Below are positions 17,503 through 26,510 of a stretch of 49,392 nucleotides of DNA, piece after piece. The position numbers were made by a program, and so were the translations under genes. The notes under the pieces were generated by a model that did not search any database, had not been told where the DNA came from, and saw nothing but the letters and a program-made list of their open reading frames with translations. Position 1 is the first letter of the stretch. Each line of letters starts with the position of its first letter. The stretch comes from an uncultured bacterium (GTDB lineage Bacteria > Verrucomicrobiota > Kiritimatiellia > RFP12 > UBA1067). The DNA is taken from NCBI GenBank assembly GCA_902775595.1, contig CACYNF010000008.1, forward strand, positions 1 to 49,392. Direction: 5' to 3'.

Positions 17503-18711
17503 CTAGATTGCGCCTTCATCCGCCTTCGCGCGGGCGTCGGACAATGAGACGCCGTTGCGGCGCGCGTAGGCGACGAGATCGTCGGCCTCCCACTTCGCGC
17601 GGCTAACGCCGTGCCCCGACGCGATTTTGCGCCTGACGGTCGAGCCGTCCGAAAGCGAGACCTCCTCGATCTTCCTCGAAAGCGTGTACCTGAGGCAGGT
17701 CTTTTCGCGAATGCCGAGAGTCAATGTGTTCGCGAATATCGCGGAAACGACTTTCGCCTTGTCCTCCTCCATGCACATCACGCACGCGAGGACACCGGGC
17801 CTGCCCTTCTTCATCACGACATGGGCAAACGCCACGTCCTTCGCGCCCGCTGCGAAGATGCGCTCCGACGCGAACGCGAGCTCCTCGCCCGTCATGTCGT
17901 CGACGTTGAAGTCGAGCTCGCAAATCGTCCCGTCCGCGGCGAGCGGCGCGGTCTTTTTGCCGAGCGTCGCGCGGACGACATTCGCGCGCGGGAAATCCCT
18001 CCGCCCCGCGCCGAAGCCGATCGTCTCCGACTTCATGAGCGGCTGCGGGCCGAACGAAGTCGCGAATGTCTTCAGGAGCGCGGCGCCAGTCGGCGTGCAG
18101 AGCTCGCCGACGATCTCGCCGTCGGAATACGACGGCACGCCAAGCAGCAGAAATGCCGTCGCGGGAGCGGGAACGGAAAGCGTCCCGTGCGCGCACTCGA
18201 CCGTCCCCGAGCCGACGTTGACGGGAGAGACGACGACTTCGTCCGGTGCGAGATTGTTCAGAAGATGGCAGAACGCCGCGATGTCGGCAACCGCATCGAG
18301 CGCACCGACTTCGTGGAAGTGGATTTCGCCCACCTCCCGCCCGTGCGCGCGCGACTCCGCCGCGGCGATCGCCTCGTAGACCTTCGCGACGTCGCGCTTC
18401 GTCTTTTCGCCAAGCGGTAGGCCCCCGACGAGCGAAAGGATGTCCGCGAGGGAATGGTGCTCGTGGTGGTGTTCGTGTCCGTGGTGGTGATGCTCGTGCG
18501 CACCCTCCTCCTCGCCGTGGACGCGTACGAAAAGATGAGTCGCCGCGATACCGCATTTGCAGAGCGTCTCGCGCGTGAACTCGACGCCGGGGATTCCGAG
18601 TGCGTTGAGTTCGGCGAGCGCGGCGTCCTTGTCGGGCATAAGTTCGAGGAGCGCTCCGGCGAGCATGTCGCCTGCCGCGCCCATCTGGCAGTCTATGTAG
18701 AGCGTCTTCAT
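17503..18711 (-). CDS. larC: Nickel-pincer cofactor biosynthesis protein LarC
   Basis: A 402-residue protein that inserts nickel, with CTP use, into the pincer nucleotide cofactor. It opens MKTLYIDCQMGAAGDM and has a His-rich segment (HEHHHHGHEHHHEHH, about residues 82-96), plausible for nickel binding. FHEVGALDAVADI, NVGSGTVECAHGTL, CTPTGAALL and DDMTGEELAFASE follow. In Lactobacillus the two halves are joined by programmed frameshifting; here they are one continuous frame. The start at 18711 overlaps the larB stop by four bases. Confidence 0.95.
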   Translation of the reverse strand: MKTLYIDCQMGAAGDMLAGALLELMPDKDAALAELNALGIPGVEFTRETLCKCGIAATHLFVRVHGEEEGAHEHHHHGHEHHHEHHSLADILSLVGGLPLGEKTKRDVAKVYEAIAAAESRAHGREVGEIHFHEVGALDAVADIAAFCHLLNNLAPDEVVVSPVNVGSGTVECAHGTLSVPAPATAFLLLGVPSYSDGEIVGELCTPTGAALLKTFATSFGPQPLMKSETIGFGAGRRDFPRANVVRATLGKKTAPLAADGTICELDFNVDDMTGEELAFASERIFAAGAKDVAFAHVVMKKGRPGVLACVMCMEEDKAKVVSAIFANTLTLGIREKTCLRYTLSRKIEEVSLSDGSTVRRKIASGHGVSRAKWEADDLVAYARRNGVSLSDARAKADEGAI

Positions 18712-19394
18712 TTCGCCTCCCCCATGTGGTTGATGCGGCTTGCGAGAAAGCCCGCGCCGAAGCCGTTGTCGATGTTCACGACGCTTACCCCCGCCGCGCA
18801 CGAATTCAGCATGGAGAGAAGCGCTGTGACGCCGCCGAACGAAGAACCGTAGCCGACGCTCGTGGGGACTGCGATTACAGGCGAATCGACAAGCCCGCCG
18901 ATTACGCTCGGAAGCGCCCCTTCCATCCCTGCAACCGCCACCACCACCCGCGCCGCGCGCAGTTCGCCAAGGCAGGCGAGAAGCCTGTGGAGCCCCGCAA
19001 CGCCTACGTCGTAAAGCCGCATTACCCTGTTGCCGAGCGCCTCCGCCACAAGCGCGGCTTCCTCGGCGACTGGGATGTCGCTCGTCCCGCCTGTCGCGAC
19101 GGCGATCGTGCCGATTCCGTCGCACGGCCTGTTTCCGCCGAGGCGCCCGAGCCGGGCTTCGGGGAAATACGTGAAGTCAGCGCCGAGGGACTTCGCGACC
19201 TCCGCGGCCTTTTCGGCGTCGATGCGCGTGACGAGCGCGGGGAGCTGGGCGTGGTCCCTGAGCGATGCGAGTATGGCCGCGATCTGAGCGGCTGTCTTCC
19301 CTTCGCCGTACACGACCTCGGCCGTTCCCTGGCGGGATCGGCGCTGCAGGTCGACGCGCGCGAAGCCGATGTCGTCTATGTCACAGGACTTCAT
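18708..19394 (-). CDS. larB: Nickel-pincer cofactor biosynthesis protein LarB
   Basis: A 228-residue NAD hydrolase/carboxylase that makes dicarboxylated nicotinate mononucleotide from NaAD. Signatures are FARVDLQRRSRQGTAEVVYG, IAVATGGTSDIPVAEEAA, YDVGVAGLHRLL, AVAGMEGALPSVIGGL and PTSVGYGSSFGGVTALLSML, the AIR-carboxylase-like core. It overlaps larE by 14 bases and larC by four. Confidence 0.96.
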   Translation of the reverse strand: MKSCDIDDIGFARVDLQRRSRQGTAEVVYGEGKTAAQIAAILASLRDHAQLPALVTRIDAEKAAEVAKSLGADFTYFPEARLGRLGGNRPCDGIGTIAVATGGTSDIPVAEEAALVAEALGNRVMRLYDVGVAGLHRLLACLGELRAARVVVAVAGMEGALPSVIGGLVDSPVIAVPTSVGYGSSFGGVTALLSMLNSCAAGVSVVNIDNGFGAGFLASRINHMGEAK

Positions 19395-20187
19395 TGAGGC
19401 TCCCTGTTCTGTATCCTTCGAGGTCGAGCGAAATGTAGGAAAAGCCGAGCCGCCTCAGTTCCGCGGCACATTCGCCGCGGCGCGCGAAGATCGCTTCCGT
19501 CGCCGCGGCGTCGGCCTCGATCCGCGCGGAGCCGCCGTGCGAGCGGACGCGCAGCTGCGAAAGCTCCGGCGCAACGGTGCGCAGGAAGCGCTCCGCCCCG
19601 CCGACGCGGAGAAGCCCCTCGCGCGTGATGCGCTCGCCGTACGGAAACCTCGACGCAAGGCACGCGGAGGACGGCCTCGCGCAGGCGGAGATTCCAAGCT
19701 CGCGCAGGCATTCGCGTATCTCGCCCTTTGAGAACCCGGCGTCCCTGAGCGGACTTCTGACGCCGAGCTCGGCAATCGCGCGGCGTCCGGGCCGGTAGTC
19801 CGAGTCGTCGTCGACGTTGGAACCCTCGGCGACGGCCTGGATTCCGTTCGCGCGCGCAAGGTCGCGGATCGCGGTGAAGAGCGCCTTCTTGCAGTGGTAG
19901 CAGCGGTCGGGCGGGTTTTCCGCGAACATCGGAACCGAGAGGACGTCGAACTCGATCGTCTCGAGGCGCGCGCCAATGTCGCGGCAGATGCGCCGCGCGT
20001 CGTCCGCCTCGTCCTGCGGGAACGCATGCGAAAGAACGGTCACCGCCATCGACCCGTCGCCAAGCGCGTCGTGCGCGGCCTTGAGGAGAAGCGTGGAGTC
20101 AGCCCCGCCGGAAAAGGCGACTGCGGCCGACCCCATCTGCGAAAGGATCCGCTTCAGGTCTTCATACCTGTCAAGCGGACGCGGCAT
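19381..20187 (-). CDS. larE: Nickel-pincer cofactor biosynthesis sulfur transferase LarE
   Basis: A 268-residue PP-loop enzyme that thiolates the cofactor precursor. The pyrophosphatase loop is SGGADS (26-31). CYHC supplies Cys96 and Cys99, and PSSACLASR places a cysteine at residue 176, matching the number of the sacrificial sulfur-donor Cys of L. plantarum LarE. This predicts the single-turnover desulfurising type, though the CxxC pair could instead support a cluster. The start at 20187 was chosen because homology begins at RPLDRYEDLKRIL; it overlaps the preceding gene by 17 bases. Confidence 0.94.
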   Translation of the reverse strand: MPRPLDRYEDLKRILSQMGSAAVAFSGGADSTLLLKAAHDALGDGSMAVTVLSHAFPQDEADDARRICRDIGARLETIEFDVLSVPMFAENPPDRCYHCKKALFTAIRDLARANGIQAVAEGSNVDDDSDYRPGRRAIAELGVRSPLRDAGFSKGEIRECLRELGISACARPSSACLASRFPYGERITREGLLRVGGAERFLRTVAPELSQLRVRSHGGSARIEADAAATEAIFARRGECAAELRRLGFSYISLDLEGYRTGSLNEVL

Positions 20188-20455
20188 GAAACTTCCGCGA
20201 AAGTGAGAGGACTCCGAACACCGCGAGCCCCGCGGCAAGCACGATGGCCCCCAGCAGCGCGTCGTGGGCGGAGAGGTCAAGAAGCGGCTCGCCCTCCATC
20301 GCGCCGGCGACGCAGTCGACGGACCACATGAGGGCCGCGCCCCAGAACATGAGCATCGTCGTGAAGACCGCGCCGTTCGGCCTGCCGGACTTCTTCGCCG
20401 CGAAATGCCAGGCCGTGAACGCGACGGCCGCCGCTATCGTCATGAGCTCACACAT
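20171..20455 (-). CDS. Small membrane protein of the lar operon (second)
   Basis: A 94-residue hydrophobic protein with about three membrane segments (TIAAAVAFTAWHFAA, TMLMFWGAALMWSVDCVAGAM and ALLGAIVLAAGLAVFGVL). It shares no family signature I can name. It overlaps the first small membrane protein by eight bases and larE by 17, so it is part of the same translation-coupled operon. A role in nickel entry, cofactor handling or membrane localisation of a LarA-type enzyme is inference only. The start at 20455 was taken because the longer frame adds a very basic, unlikely N-terminus. Confidence 0.75.
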   Translation of the reverse strand: MCELMTIAAAVAFTAWHFAAKKSGRPNGAVFTTMLMFWGAALMWSVDCVAGAMEGEPLLDLSAHDALLGAIVLAAGLAVFGVLSLSRKFHAASA

Positions 20456-20892: not shown

Positions 20893-21663
20893 TTAAAGGA
20901 GGTCGAGGGGGAGCTTGCGGCGCGCGCCGGGGAGATCGGCGACGAAACGCGGGAGGGCGAGCCCGCCGATGCGCTCCGCGCAGTACGCCTCGATTTCCTT
21001 CGCCCGCGCGAGCGGAACGCCAAAGCGCTCCTGAAGCCCCTCGACGGGATCGCACTGGAAGACGTAGTAGGGCCGGATCCTCGCGGCGGAAAGCGCGCGA
21101 AGAAGCGCGAGCATCCTGGCCGGCGTGTCGTTCACGCCCCTGAGAAGCACCGTCTGAGAGGAGACGGGGATGCCGCAGTCGACGAGACGCGCCGCAGCTC
21201 CCCCCGCGCGCTTCGCCTCGGCCGCAGTGTTGACGTGGACGTTCGCCCACACCTTGCCGCGCCCGACGCGCCGCAGAAGGCGCGCAAGGCGCAGCGTCAC
21301 CCTCGCCTCCTTCGCGACGGGCGCGCGGGTGCATATGCGCACGACCTCTATCTGCGGGAGAGATGCGAACGCATCGACGAAGCGCGCGACCTCGGCGTCG
21401 GAAAGCGTCAGCACGTCGCCGCCCGACAGCAGCACGTCCCTCACCTTCGGATGCCGCTTCACCCAGTCGACGCAGGCGGCGAGCCCCTCGGGCGTGTCGA
21501 CGACGGGGGACTTCCCGAGGATGAACTTCCGCGTGCAGTGCGGGCACGCGCCGAAGCAGCGGTCGGTCGTCATGACGAGCACGCGGTCGGGGAACCTCTG
21601 CTTCAGCCCCGGCGGCATCGAACGGCGCGGCGACAGCTCGCCGAATGGATCTCTCCTATTCAT
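20893..21663 (-). CDS. Short KamA/EpmB-like radical SAM aminomutase-family protein
   Basis: A 256-residue radical SAM protein with the aminomutase-type cluster motif CFGACPHC. Preceding RFPDRVLVMTTD and following LLSGGDVLTLSD are typical of lysine 2,3-aminomutase relatives. The C-terminus LPGARRKLPLDLL keeps a Lys where KamA binds PLP (PGGGGK). It lacks the roughly 90-residue helical N-terminus of KamA and EpmB. The start overlaps the stop of the AT-DH-PPTase gene by eight bases, so the two are translated together. Substrate unknown; a beta-amino acid or a protein lysine are the family options. Confidence 0.85.
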   Translation of the reverse strand: MNRRDPFGELSPRRSMPPGLKQRFPDRVLVMTTDRCFGACPHCTRKFILGKSPVVDTPEGLAACVDWVKRHPKVRDVLLSGGDVLTLSDAEVARFVDAFASLPQIEVVRICTRAPVAKEARVTLRLARLLRRVGRGKVWANVHVNTAAEAKRAGGAAARLVDCGIPVSSQTVLLRGVNDTPARMLALLRALSAARIRPYYVFQCDPVEGLQERFGVPLARAKEIEAYCAERIGGLALPRFVADLPGARRKLPLDLL

Positions 21664-24600
21664 CGAACAGGGTCATTGGCATGAAGCAGAACGCAAGCGC
21701 GTGTTCGCGCATGACGCGCGAGACGACGTCTATGTCGCGGCCGCGGAACTTCTTGAAGGCGTCGAGCCACGCGCCCTCGAGGCGGATGACGAGCCTGCCC
21801 GTGTCGGCCTGGTAGCCGGTGACGTGCATCTCGCGCGGGCTGTAGCGTATCCCGGTTCCGAGCGCCTTGGAGACGGCCTCCTTCGCGCACCAGAACCTTA
21901 TTATCGCCTGCGACGCGTTCGCGGCGTTCGCGGCGAGCTCGAGCTCCTCGGGAACGAACACGCCCGCGGTGAACTCCTCGGAGAGGTCGCGCGTTACGGA
22001 CTCGACGTCGACGCCGACGCGCGCGTTGGCCGCCGCGAGCGCGATGATGAACTGCGCGGTGTGCGCGATGGCGATGTCGATCTTCTCGGCGAGGTAGTCC
22101 CCCCACGCGCCGAGCGCATGGGGCTTGCCGGAGTCGTCGCGCCATATCTGGATGTCGGCGTCGCTCCACCTCGCCTGGTGGAAGTCCTTGAGATACCGCC
22201 TCACGGCCTCCTTCGCGGCGACGCGCCCGAACAGCCATTCCGTGCGCCGCGACGCGGAGCCGGGCATGCTGCGGAACTCGTCGCGCTCCTGCGTCCCGAG
22301 TACGACGTGCGAGAGCGTCTTGAGCCACAGCTCCTCGTTGCGCTCGAAGATCTGGTAGGGAACGTCCGTTATGAACGCGCTCGCGACCTCCGTCGCCGGG
22401 TCGCCGAGCATGTCGGTCGAGACGCGGCGCGTGAGGAACGCGTTCGCCGGCTGGTGAATGAGCTCGCGGTACTCCGCGGGAACACGCTCGGTGAGCTCCT
22501 CCCAGCCGGAGAGCGCCATGACCGCCGTGCCGTTGCCGTCTGTCGCGACGATGTCGCAGACGTGCGACTTGGGCGTGACGCCGGTGAGCCTGAGGTAGCA
22601 CTTGAGACGCGAGCCCTCGTGCGGCGGCGCGCCGAAGAGCTCGAGCTTCCTCATGCGGAACGGGAACGAGAAAGCGCCCGTGAACTTCTCGTGGCTGCGC
22701 CAGAGCGAGAAGCCGCTCGCAACCACGCCGAGGAGGAGGGGGTTTACGACCCAGAGCGGGAAGCGCGTGAAGACAACGGCGTCGGACATCTGCGGGACCT
22801 CGACCTCGTAGTCGAGCCCCGATTCACTCCACGACTCGACGAAGCGTATCCCCCTGAGCCGGCGCCCGAAGCAGAGGCGCGACGGGTATATGTCGCGGCC
22901 TGACCAGTGGACGCTGCGCGGCTTGAACATCGGCTGCGGCGATGCCACGACAGACGGCGCCGGCTGCTCTGCCAGCACGAACACGCCGTCCATCAGCGGC
23001 CAGGTGTAGGCGGAATTCGGGGAATCGTCGCGCACCTGGACCTTGACGGCCGCGAGCTTCGCGTCGCCGGACGCGACGCGCTCGGCCTTGACGAAGAGCC
23101 GGAGCTCTCCGCCCGAAAAGGCGACCATCCGCCTGCAGCCCAGATCCTCGATCGCGACGAGCGACCTGTTCGGCACGACCATGCGCGCGACCTCGGCCAT
23201 GATCTCCGCCGCCGCAGGGATGGAAAGCGTAACGAGCCCCTTGAGGTTGGGGTCGGCGTAGGAGAGCTGGCTCGTGCCGAGCGCGAAATCGGCGAGGAAC
23301 GGCGCGTCAGAAGTGCGGAACGTCTTCGCCACCTCTATCGATACGCCGGGGCTCTGCGAGAGGATGTCGGCGTCTGAGACGAGCGGATTCGCCGCGCCGA
23401 AGTCGAACTGGCGCTGGCGGCGCGCCTTCGCGGCCATTGCCGCGGCCCTCTGCGCGGCCTTCGCGCCGCGGCCCGTCGGCTCGGAGAGGAAGTTCGCGCC
23501 CTGCAGGAAGGTCTCGTCTCCGAGCAGGGTGAGGCGCGGGAACGCGCTCGACAGCAGCATCTCCGCGTCGCGCCGCACCTCGAGGGAAAGCAAGGAATTG
23601 AAGTCGAGCTGCCTTACGCGGCGGCCCTCGAACGCCTTTGCGAAGTCGAACTCCGCGCCGTAGGCGGCGAGCTGGCCGAGCGCGTGGTGCGCCTGCAGGA
23701 TGCCGCGGCGGTGTATCGAGTTGAGCGCTATCGCCGCGAAGTCGGAGCCCTTCAGCGTCTCCGCTACGGCAGCCGTCATCAGCCCGCGCGGACCGACCTC
23801 GAGGAAGACGCGGTATCCGTCGGCGTACATCTTCTGTATCGTCTCGCGGAACCTCACCGGCTGCGCCCAGCGCTCGGCCGTGTCGTTGCGCGACGGGCGC
23901 GCCTTGCGCGGGAGGCGGTCGGCCTGCGCGCACGAGTAGACGTCGCACACCGCCTCGTGCTTCATCCAGTCGCCGGCGAACTTCTTGACGCCCGCGACTA
24001 TCGGCTTGCACTTCGACGTGTTGAACGGGCGCTCGAGCGCGAGCTTCATCGTGCGGATCCCCGCGTCGGAGAACGCCTTGAGCGCGGTCTCCTCGTAGTC
24101 GGGCGCGACGGCGTAGGTGCGCTGGCGCGGGGAGAAGTCGAGGACAAGCGCGACCTTGTCGGCCGGAAAGCCCTTCACCACCTCGTCCGCCTCCCCCTCG
24201 TGCTTGAGGAGGACGGAGATTATCGACGTCTTCGGGAGCCCCGAGTGGTCTACCGCCTTGTCGACGATCTTGTAGATCTCGCGTATCGCGCGCACTCTCA
24301 CGGGCCGGGGGTTGCCCGTTCCAGCGGCGCCCGAGCGCATCACCGCGGCAAGGTCGCCGCCAACGCAGCCGACGACGCCGTCGGGCTTTATGCCGAGGCG
24401 GTCGAGGAGCCGCGACAGGGCGACGCATCCCGAGAAGGAGGCCACGAACGCCTGGGCATAGGCGCCCGAGCTGAATATGTCGGCGTCGTGGCGGTAATAT
24501 GACGCAGGGGGGAAGATGAAGCTCGACGGCGTGAAGTCGGGATCGTCCGCAAGCGCCTCCTCGAGCTCGTCGAACGCCGCACGGCACTCGGGGTGGAGGA

Positions 24601-24982
24601 TCGCAATGTCGCGGAGCATGTCGGGATAGAAGCTCATCACGCCCGGATAGACGAAGGCGAGCTTCCCGGTGCCGTCGCCGACGAGATGAGAGCGGAAGTA
24701 GTAGGTGCCGCTCTTGTCGCGTATCTTCGCCGCGCCCGCCGCGATGCGCGAACGCGCGGAGAAGAGGCGCTCCCTCAGCTCGTGGACGCTCGACACGACG
24801 AGCGCGAGGACTGCGGGGCCGCGCGAGAGCGAGCAGGTGTAGGCGACGTCGGCGAGCGGCACGTCCGGCACGCGGTCGAGGAACGCCACGATGCGCGCGA
24901 CCTCCGCCGCGAGCGAGGCGTCGTCCGCCGCCGAGACGAGGACGAGTTCGCTTCTGCCGGTTGCCCCGAAACCCGCCGTCAC
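21656..24982 (-). CDS. PUFA-synthase-like AT-DH-PPTase fusion with erased AT and DH active sites
   Basis: An 1108-residue protein. Residues about 105-450 align with the acyltransferase of PfaB-type PUFA synthases (FVYPGVMSFYPDML), but the GHSxG nucleophile elbow reads GCVGG (205-209, Ser to Val207) and the partner His is Asn321 (PFNTS). Residues about 555-850 form a double-hotdog dehydratase: PFLADFALG replaces the catalytic His with Phe566, and NPLLLG replaces the catalytic Asp with Gly752. Residues about 915-1090 are an Sfp-type phosphopantetheinyl transferase with its motifs intact (GVDVE with Asp992 and Glu994; WCAKEAVSKA at 1031-1040). No acyl carrier protein is present. It overlaps the KS-like gene by four bases and the radical SAM gene by eight. 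There are no stops or frameshifts, so the losses look selected, not decayed. Confidence 0.85.
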   Translation of the reverse strand: MTAGFGATGRSELVLVSAADDASLAAEVARIVAFLDRVPDVPLADVAYTCSLSRGPAVLALVVSSVHELRERLFSARSRIAAGAAKIRDKSGTYYFRSHLVGDGTGKLAFVYPGVMSFYPDMLRDIAILHPECRAAFDELEEALADDPDFTPSSFIFPPASYYRHDADIFSSGAYAQAFVASFSGCVALSRLLDRLGIKPDGVVGCVGGDLAAVMRSGAAGTGNPRPVRVRAIREIYKIVDKAVDHSGLPKTSIISVLLKHEGEADEVVKGFPADKVALVLDFSPRQRTYAVAPDYEETALKAFSDAGIRTMKLALERPFNTSKCKPIVAGVKKFAGDWMKHEAVCDVYSCAQADRLPRKARPSRNDTAERWAQPVRFRETIQKMYADGYRVFLEVGPRGLMTAAVAETLKGSDFAAIALNSIHRRGILQAHHALGQLAAYGAEFDFAKAFEGRRVRQLDFNSLLSLEVRRDAEMLLSSAFPRLTLLGDETFLQGANFLSEPTGRGAKAAQRAAAMAAKARRQRQFDFGAANPLVSDADILSQSPGVSIEVAKTFRTSDAPFLADFALGTSQLSYADPNLKGLVTLSIPAAAEIMAEVARMVVPNRSLVAIEDLGCRRMVAFSGGELRLFVKAERVASGDAKLAAVKVQVRDDSPNSAYTWPLMDGVFVLAEQPAPSVVASPQPMFKPRSVHWSGRDIYPSRLCFGRRLRGIRFVESWSESGLDYEVEVPQMSDAVVFTRFPLWVVNPLLLGVVASGFSLWRSHEKFTGAFSFPFRMRKLELFGAPPHEGSRLKCYLRLTGVTPKSHVCDIVATDGNGTAVMALSGWEELTERVPAEYRELIHQPANAFLTRRVSTDMLGDPATEVASAFITDVPYQIFERNEELWLKTLSHVVLGTQERDEFRSMPGSASRRTEWLFGRVAAKEAVRRYLKDFHQARWSDADIQIWRDDSGKPHALGAWGDYLAEKIDIAIAHTAQFIIALAAANARVGVDVESVTRDLSEEFTAGVFVPEELELAANAANASQAIIRFWCAKEAVSKALGTGIRYSPREMHVTGYQADTGRLVIRLEGAWLDAFKKFRGRDIDVVSRVMREHALAFCFMPMTLFDE

Positions 24983-26382
24983 GACCTCACCTCCGGTTCC
25001 TCCTCAAGGACGATCACCGCCGAGCGGCCGCCTTTCGCCGCGGCGCCCACCGGATCAGTCGCGTCGAAGTTCGCGCCGAGAACCGCGGCGCGGCGCGGGC
25101 TCGAACTGTCGCCGGTTATCCACGGTCGCGCTTCGCCAAGGAGATACGCGCTCGACGCGAGGTTCGCGAGGGAGTCGTGGGGATGCTCCGGCGGGATCTG
25201 CGGCGGCAGCACGCGGTTGAAGAGCGAAAGCGACGCCTTGACGACGCCTGCGGCCATCGCCGCGCGGAGGGTATGGCCGATGTTGCCCTTGACCGAGCCC
25301 ATCGCGACGAGGGGCCCTCCGGGGCGATGCTCGCCCCAGAGCCGGTGGACGGCGTCTATCTCGCGCTGCTCTGCGACTGCGATCCCCGAGCCGTCGGCTT
25401 CGATGAGCCCTACGGTCTTGACGGGGATTTCGCTCCCCTCCGTCGCCTGCGCGAGGATCGCCGACGGGTCGTCTTCGGGATTGTGGCCTATAGCTATCGA
25501 GCGGACGAGCGCGTAGACGCGATCGTGGTCGCGCAGCGCGTCGGTGCGGCGCTTCAGGACGAAGAACGCGCCGCCCTCGCCCGGGATCGTGCCCTCCTGC
25601 TCCTGCGCGAAGGGATAGAGCTCGGTGCGCGTCGAAAACGGAATCGCGCCGGAGAGGCCCTCGAGGTAGGCGCGCGGGATCGGCGGCGTGAGCGCGCCAG
25701 CGAGAGCGACGTCCGCCTGTCCCGAGACGAGGTCGGCGACGGCGTTCTGCAGCGCCGCCGCGCCGGAGAGAATGCCGGCGTCCATCGTGGTCGCCACGCC
25801 CGCGAACGAGCATTCGCGCGCTATCCACGAGGCGAAGCGGTAGCCCGTGCCGAGAAGAAACGACGAGGCGTTGGGCGCGGGAAGCGACTCGACGAGCTTC
25901 TTCCTCACCTCGTCGAGGGACTCCTCGGGGGAGCGCGGGAAGAACCTGCGGATGATGTCCATCGTCTGGTCGAGGAACGCCGTGTGCTGGAGCCAGTTCA
26001 CCGTCGACGCGTTGAACGGCGGCGCATACCCGATGCGCACGCTGCCCTTGATCGGCGTCGGCGAATGCGGGCGGAGCCCGGCGTCCGCAAGCGCGTCGAA
26101 CGCGAGCTGCGTCGCGAAGTAGAGGTCCTGGTTCTCGCCGGCGTTTACCTGGCGCGGGAAGTTCTGCATCGAGGGCACGCACGAGAAGAGCGGCCCGAGC
26201 TGCCCCATCCTCGTGGGATAGGGTCTTGCGAAGACGTTGCGCGTGCCGACCGGCAGCTCGGCGTCTGGACCGAGCGGCGACAGGCAGCAGCGGCGCGACA
26301 TAACGGCGCTCCAGAAGGCCGAAGGCGTCGGACACTCCGCGAACCGGCACGACATGCCGACTATGGCGATGCGGGATTCCAC
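24979..26382 (-). CDS. Ketosynthase-like protein lacking the catalytic Cys and one His
   Basis: A 467-residue thiolase-fold beta-ketoacyl synthase relative, from RIAIVGMSCRFAECP to LGANFDATDP. The nucleophile motif (normally DxACSS) reads DAGILSG, putting Ile204 in place of Cys. The first catalytic His (normally EAHGTG) is Asp330 in EADGSG. The second Lys/His motif is kept (GSVKGNIGH, Lys365 and His370). It therefore cannot condense acyl chains in the normal way and resembles a chain-length-factor or the KS-like half of PfaB. The start is GTG at 26382, eight bases after a TATAAT box, suggesting a leaderless mRNA. It overlaps the next gene by four bases (ATGA). Confidence 0.87.
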   Translation of the reverse strand: MESRIAIVGMSCRFAECPTPSAFWSAVMSRRCCLSPLGPDAELPVGTRNVFARPYPTRMGQLGPLFSCVPSMQNFPRQVNAGENQDLYFATQLAFDALADAGLRPHSPTPIKGSVRIGYAPPFNASTVNWLQHTAFLDQTMDIIRRFFPRSPEESLDEVRKKLVESLPAPNASSFLLGTGYRFASWIARECSFAGVATTMDAGILSGAAALQNAVADLVSGQADVALAGALTPPIPRAYLEGLSGAIPFSTRTELYPFAQEQEGTIPGEGGAFFVLKRRTDALRDHDRVYALVRSIAIGHNPEDDPSAILAQATEGSEIPVKTVGLIEADGSGIAVAEQREIDAVHRLWGEHRPGGPLVAMGSVKGNIGHTLRAAMAAGVVKASLSLFNRVLPPQIPPEHPHDSLANLASSAYLLGEARPWITGDSSSPRRAAVLGANFDATDPVGAAAKGGRSAVIVLEEEPEVRS

Positions 26383-26419: not shown

Positions 26420-26510
26420 CGGAGAGAGAGGGATTCGAACCCTCGGTACGGAAATTAACCCGTACGACGATTTAGCAAACCGTTGCCTTCAGCCACTCGG
26501 CCATCTCTCC
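26420..26510 (-). tRNA. tRNA-Ser(GCU)
   Basis: On the minus strand GGAGAGA pairs with TCTCTCC as acceptor stem. The anticodon loop TTTGCTAAA gives anticodon GCT. The T arm contains GGTTCGAATCC, and a long variable arm (TACGGGTTAATTTCCGTA) marks the class II serine type. CCA is encoded directly downstream (26417-26419). Confidence 0.96.

Follow-up and report, generated by a model that had tools for sequence, protein, structure and literature searches.

Genes at the locus

The window, that is, the whole stretch of 49,392 nucleotides that was analysed, comes from a MAG that is 86% complete. Genomes are labelled by number, where G000 is the window's own genome, f1 is its family, and f2 to f6 are other families of the order. 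Two neighbouring genes on the minus strand encode a KS-like protein and an AT-DH-PPTase fusion (Table 1). Both frames are open, as originally described, and the second overlaps the stop of the first by 4 nt, which is likely to reflect translational coupling. Within the fusion, the PS-DH Pfam match was weak and fell below the cut-off.

Table 1. Features of the pseudo-synthase locus in window coordinates.
Feature	Position	Strand	Basis or remark
tRNA gene	26420..26510	-	directly upstream of the KS gene; operon boundary
KS-like protein, 467 aa	24979..26382	-	Pfam: ketoacyl-synt N and C
AT-DH-PPTase fusion, 1108 aa	21656..24982	-	ORF and Pfam
KS-AT linker and AT domain, residues 1-470	23573..24982	-	Pfam Acyl_transf_1; Ser to Val207, His to Asn321
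Double-hotdog DH, about residues 525-835	22478..23410	-	weak PF14765 match and alignment to the intact DH of class relatives
Complete Sfp-type PPTase domain, about residues 860-1108	21659..22405	-	ACPS 61 bits; H974, GVDVE and WCAKEAVSKALG motifs
Radical SAM protein, KamA/lysine-2,3-aminomutase-like by reading	20893..21663	-	8-nt overlap between its start and the PPTase stop

Elsewhere on the minus strand (17503-20280) a nickel insertion gene (LarC-like, PF01969) adjoins a PP-loop ATPase gene that is LarE-like by reading. This pair suggests synthesis of a nickel-pincer cofactor of the lactate racemase type.

Catalytic residues and structure models

Active sites were aligned with those of orthologues and of intact homologues. 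In the KS, the nucleophilic Cys is replaced by Ile204 and the first His by Asp330. The AT has Val207 and Asn321 in place of Ser and His, and the DH has Phe566 and Gly752 in place of His and Asp. All six substitutions thus lie where the original prediction had placed them, and the alignments, including those to intact class relatives, agree with its claim that KS, AT and DH catalysis has been lost. Its wording that every catalytic residue is replaced was too strong, as the KS still carries the second His370, Lys365 (in GSVKGNIGHT) and Glu328. One genome that is 99% identical and several that are 88% identical have the same or equivalent losses, and the substitutions are therefore neither chance events nor sequencing errors.

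The PPTase retains H974, D992, E994, K1034/E1035 and K1039, in line with the original reading of its motifs. It has the H, (G)xDxE and WxxKEAxxK motifs and the pseudodimer of about 230 aa of the Sfp type, and a TIGR00516 search found two AcpS-like halves within the fusion frame. Its P1a motif is of the lipid type x(G/D)xP (SGKP). The homologous KS, linker-AT and double-hotdog DH (the last by sequence only) follow one another in the order of Pfa-type synthases; the competent Cys-His-His of a Pfa-type KS is absent from the window KS.

Structure prediction, a search for orthologues and dN/dS had been proposed as checks together with the prediction. The models retain the thiolase (KS) and AT folds: the KS model has a pTM of 0.82 and matches PKS KS domains at E 1e-31, and the linker-AT fold aligns to the CurL and DEBS KS-AT structures with Z 36-38. 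The model of the full 1108-aa fusion reached a pTM of only 0.48, and we therefore leave the domain arrangement uninterpreted. Because the structural rows from VIA-align span residues 1-463 only, the assignments of DH and PPTase are made from the primary sequence.

Orthologues and the history of active-site loss

KS orthologues with 40-100% identity were found by protein search in 104 of the 115 family genomes, including 28 of the 29 of high quality. Among the named records, MAGs from rumen and gut predominate, with the labels Kiritimatiellae, Lentisphaerae or Verrucomicrobia. A search of 388 genomes of the phylum was made with a profile of the fusion protein, nearly all of the genomes compared being incomplete MAGs. 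Full-length relatives were present in f1 and four other families of the order (f2, f3, f5 and f6), f4 yielded none, and a small number of further families in the class and phylum had relatives that were shorter or intact. The window does not hold a lone decaying copy, in line with the original prediction; losses recur among the orthologues of the order, and class relatives carry an intact version. Decay of a single copy is ruled out by these orthologues together with the dN/dS values given below. One genome (G028, 90% complete; locus L248, G028:C31:54000-66000) has AT-DH-PPTase and no detectable KS orthologue, and the KS may therefore be dispensable for the PPTase.

The class relatives G289, G371 and G152 and the phylum outgroup G243 have intact homologous sites wherever these are covered. 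Their KS reads DGACASS or DAACASS, EAH(G/A)TG and GHC, their AT has GHSxGE and HT or HS, and the DH His and Asp are present. In G289 an NMO-KS-AT-ACP2-KR protein, a fused subunit of the PfaD-PfaA type, is encoded no more than about 10 kb from the intact homologues. The intact class relatives and this PfaA-like neighbour support the descent from a PUFA or secondary-lipid synthase that had been proposed.

Within the order the losses are staggered, and the DH His is absent throughout. In f3 and f5 the AT still has its Ser and His, and the KS Cys is lost; f6 (G457) has kept KS Cys and His and lost the AT Ser; in f2 both the KS and the AT sites are lost. Throughout f1 the AT His has become Asn (Asp in a few) and the DH His has become Tyr, Phe or another residue. 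The deep genera of f1 keep the first KS His, and many of them the AT Ser, while the KS triad survives in f1 only in genus g16 (G104 and G105). On the tree, KS Cys requires at least 2 changes, the first KS His 5 and AT Ser 6, and a single change suffices for AT His and likewise for DH His; these counts are minima, since the tree was built quickly and some of its branches are long.

At the KS nucleophile column ten different residues occur in 68 sequences (the replacements of Cys being I, L, V, M, T, A, S, G and N), and its variability, measured as entropy, is at the 99th percentile. The PPTase is the most conserved domain and its catalytic columns are near-invariant. KS Glu328, Lys365 and His370 and AT Asn321 are also strongly conserved, which leaves room for other chemistry.

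Selection on the dead domains

dN/dS was calculated by the Nei-Gojobori method between close genomes. Values were 0.084-0.115 for KS, 0.085-0.13 for AT, 0.106-0.14 for DH and 0.064-0.096 for PPTase; the neighbouring genes used as controls gave 0.115-0.18 (radical SAM) and 0.11-0.12 (NagA). The KS gene is retained though unlinked from AT-DH-PPTase in g13 and g14, and in g13 its dN/dS is still 0.056. In g3 the dead KS has 0.033 versus 0.064 for panB. A KS value of 1.87 at locus L055 is an out-of-frame artefact and was disregarded. Overall, the dead domains have dN/dS of 0.03-0.14 and are thus under a constraint similar to that on active enzymes. This is purifying selection and not decay, and the original remark that the open frames are without decay holds in this respect too.

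The PPTase and the fatty acid genes

A PF01648 search found one PPTase per genome, the fused domain, in nearly all of 112 family genomes. In every one of the 29 genomes of at least 90% completeness, the open frame that holds the fused PPTase is 1080 aa or longer, and 27 of these genomes have no other PPTase match. A second match was found in G104, where it is sub-threshold, and in G011 beside a 2527-aa PKS. The latter locus (L090, G011:C15:12000-31900) encodes a type I PKS that is unrelated to the pseudo-PKS and has its own PPTase nearby. The checked genomes of f2, f3 and f6 have the fused PPTase alone; f5 has extra stand-alone PPTases, and f4 has a stand-alone PPTase and no fusion. In the window's own genome no second AcpS or Sfp-type gene was detected, within the limits of MAG completeness.

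A separate AcpS that had been overlooked was considered and rejected. The AcpS model TIGR00516 detects true AcpS in the class and phylum outgroups G243, G251 and G399, and within the order its only match above noise was the fused domain; PF01648 and TIGR00516 match the positive controls and the outgroups but show no separate AcpS in the order.

The window's genome encodes an ordinary AcpP (90 aa, with the DSL serine; on G000:C26) and one further carrier of 76 aa. A PfaA-like frame with tandem ACPs and KR was not found in this genome at its 86% completeness. FabD and FabF are encoded by separate genes, and the genome has a gene of FabD size. The AT is unlikely to act as the FabD of the cell, since nearly all searched genomes have a separate gene of FabD size and the AT His is lost family-wide.

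The two g16 genomes (G104 and G105; loci L078 and L080; 90-92% complete), which have the full KS triad, gave weak carrier-protein matches, and no separate FabD-like acyltransferase was found in them. Their fatty acid synthesis may be unusual.

Type II fatty acid synthesis requires holo-AcpP. With only one PPTase detected, the fusion should therefore be the cell's holo-ACP synthase, and we infer from these gene counts a predicted activity on AcpP.

Gene neighbourhood

In 20 deep-branching genomes of f1, f3 and f5, panB is found directly upstream of KS (17 f1 genomes of nine deep genera, both f5 genomes and one of the two f3 genomes). It is the sole panB copy in those of the 20 that were checked. 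As panB is the first dedicated gene of pantothenate synthesis, this operon ties the PPTase of the deep lineages to primary metabolism. No panB adjoins the intact cluster of G289. The window's genus has its panB at another site (G000:C27 in the window's genome) and carries the radical SAM gene downstream instead. The radical SAM gene follows the PPTase in many genomes, all of them of this genus, and for that reason it was judged a local neighbour and not a part of the system.

Interpretation

We read the locus, with a probability of roughly 0.6, as a housekeeping holo-ACP synthase built on a non-catalytic PKS scaffold that descends from a secondary-lipid (Pfa-type) synthase. Being the sole PPTase detected in this genome and in nearly all of the family, the fused domain must serve the ordinary AcpP. 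It would move 4'-phosphopantetheine from CoA onto AcpP and other free carriers in trans. The KS dimer and the AT-DH arm would form a non-catalytic scaffold that maintains the correct oligomeric state of the PPTase. Its surfaces that formerly met the ACPs of the synthase would most likely serve as docking sites for carrier proteins. In the deep lineages, the panB-KS-AT/DH/PPTase operon would couple the supply of pantothenate and CoA to ACP activation. More tentatively, and at somewhat less than even odds, the KS-AT-DH core could be an obligatory pseudoenzyme platform that either captures carriers for the one holo-ACP synthase that most families of the order have, or regulates this enzyme, with CoA supply linked to fatty-acid capacity through the panB operon. 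The original prediction of a re-purposed scaffold stands as far as the re-purposing is concerned; the sole PPTase and the panB operon make holo-ACP synthase scaffold a better term than its 'sensing or structural complex'.

The high conservation of the PPTase, set beside catalytic residues that drift elsewhere, would also be expected if the PPTase were the only selected function and KS-AT-DH were inert ballast that the fused polypeptide cannot lose without unfolding. This we consider unlikely, because the KS is a separate gene that is retained where it is unlinked (g13 and g14) with dN/dS of 0.03-0.11, and because shedding of the dead domains was seen neither in the high-quality f1 genomes nor in the checked f2, f3 and f6 genomes. 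Strong purifying selection, the conserved KS Glu, Lys and second His together with the AT Asn, and the complete KS triad of g16 are compatible with KS-AT-DH performing altered chemistry on acyl-ACP (e.g. decarboxylation, thioester hydrolysis or non-covalent acyl handling), with the PPTase as an accessory for its own carrier. This too appears improbable: the ten residues at the KS nucleophile position include no conserved substitute like the Gln of KSQ and CLF, the DH His is lost order-wide, and a synthase ACP or PfaA partner was not found.

A secondary-metabolite synthase in early decay, retained by chance in MAGs, would have lost its active sites relative to class relatives just as is seen here. 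It is scarcely credible given the presence in 104 of 115 family genomes, the order-wide spread, the open frames, the sole PPTase and dN/dS values well below 0.2.

PPTases are essential and usually small free enzymes. Under the preferred reading of a holo-ACP synthase on a dead scaffold, the greater part of an order of bacteria from gut and environment appears to rely on a PPTase embedded in a dead but selected megasynthase. The graded series from intact to fully dead would show a secondary-metabolite machine turning housekeeping, and makes it testable what non-catalytic KS, AT and DH surfaces do for carrier proteins. Genome mining may mistake these loci for PKS clusters.

Comparison with known systems

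PPTase-fused Pfa subunits and single broad-range PPTases are each known; their combination on a dead core was not found reported. No report of a dead KS-AT-DH core that carries the sole PPTase of most families of an order was found in the open-access literature, subscription papers lying outside the search.

Chain-length factors and KSQ homologues have a KS fold without the nucleophilic Cys, and carry a conserved Gln or another fixed residue in its place. The window KS is likewise a KS fold minus this Cys, but the residue that takes its place varies among the orthologues, and the adjacent genes include no active KS partner. With no fixed replacement (ten residues in the 68 sequences), a KSQ or CLF function was rejected. 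Integrated C-terminal PPTases occur in the alpha subunit of fungal FAS and in enediyne PKS, where they act on the ACP of their own active synthase. Here the PPTase is also C-terminal on a megasynthase subunit, whereas the complex is without ACP and without an active synthase.

The resemblance to Pfa-type secondary lipid synthases lies in the ancestry of KS, AT, DH and PPTase, in the joining of the PPTase to the AT/DH subunit, in the lipid-type P1a motif and in the fused pfaD-pfaA-like partner of the G289 relative. Fusions of a PPTase to PfaBC or PfaC are known from Pseudoalteromonas DS-12 (PMC3098273) and from the Aquimarina, Flavobacterium and Renibacterium clusters (PMC13291983). Unlike in those synthases, no PfaA or synthase ACP was found here, KS, AT and DH have lost catalytic residues, and no second PPTase was detected in the cell.

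Sole broad-range Sfp-type PPTases exist as small stand-alone proteins, e.g. PcpS of Pseudomonas aeruginosa. As in the PcpS type, one PPTase must activate the AcpP of FAS and all other carriers; the difference is that here it forms the C-terminal part of a pseudo-synthase of 1108 aa that has a KS partner.
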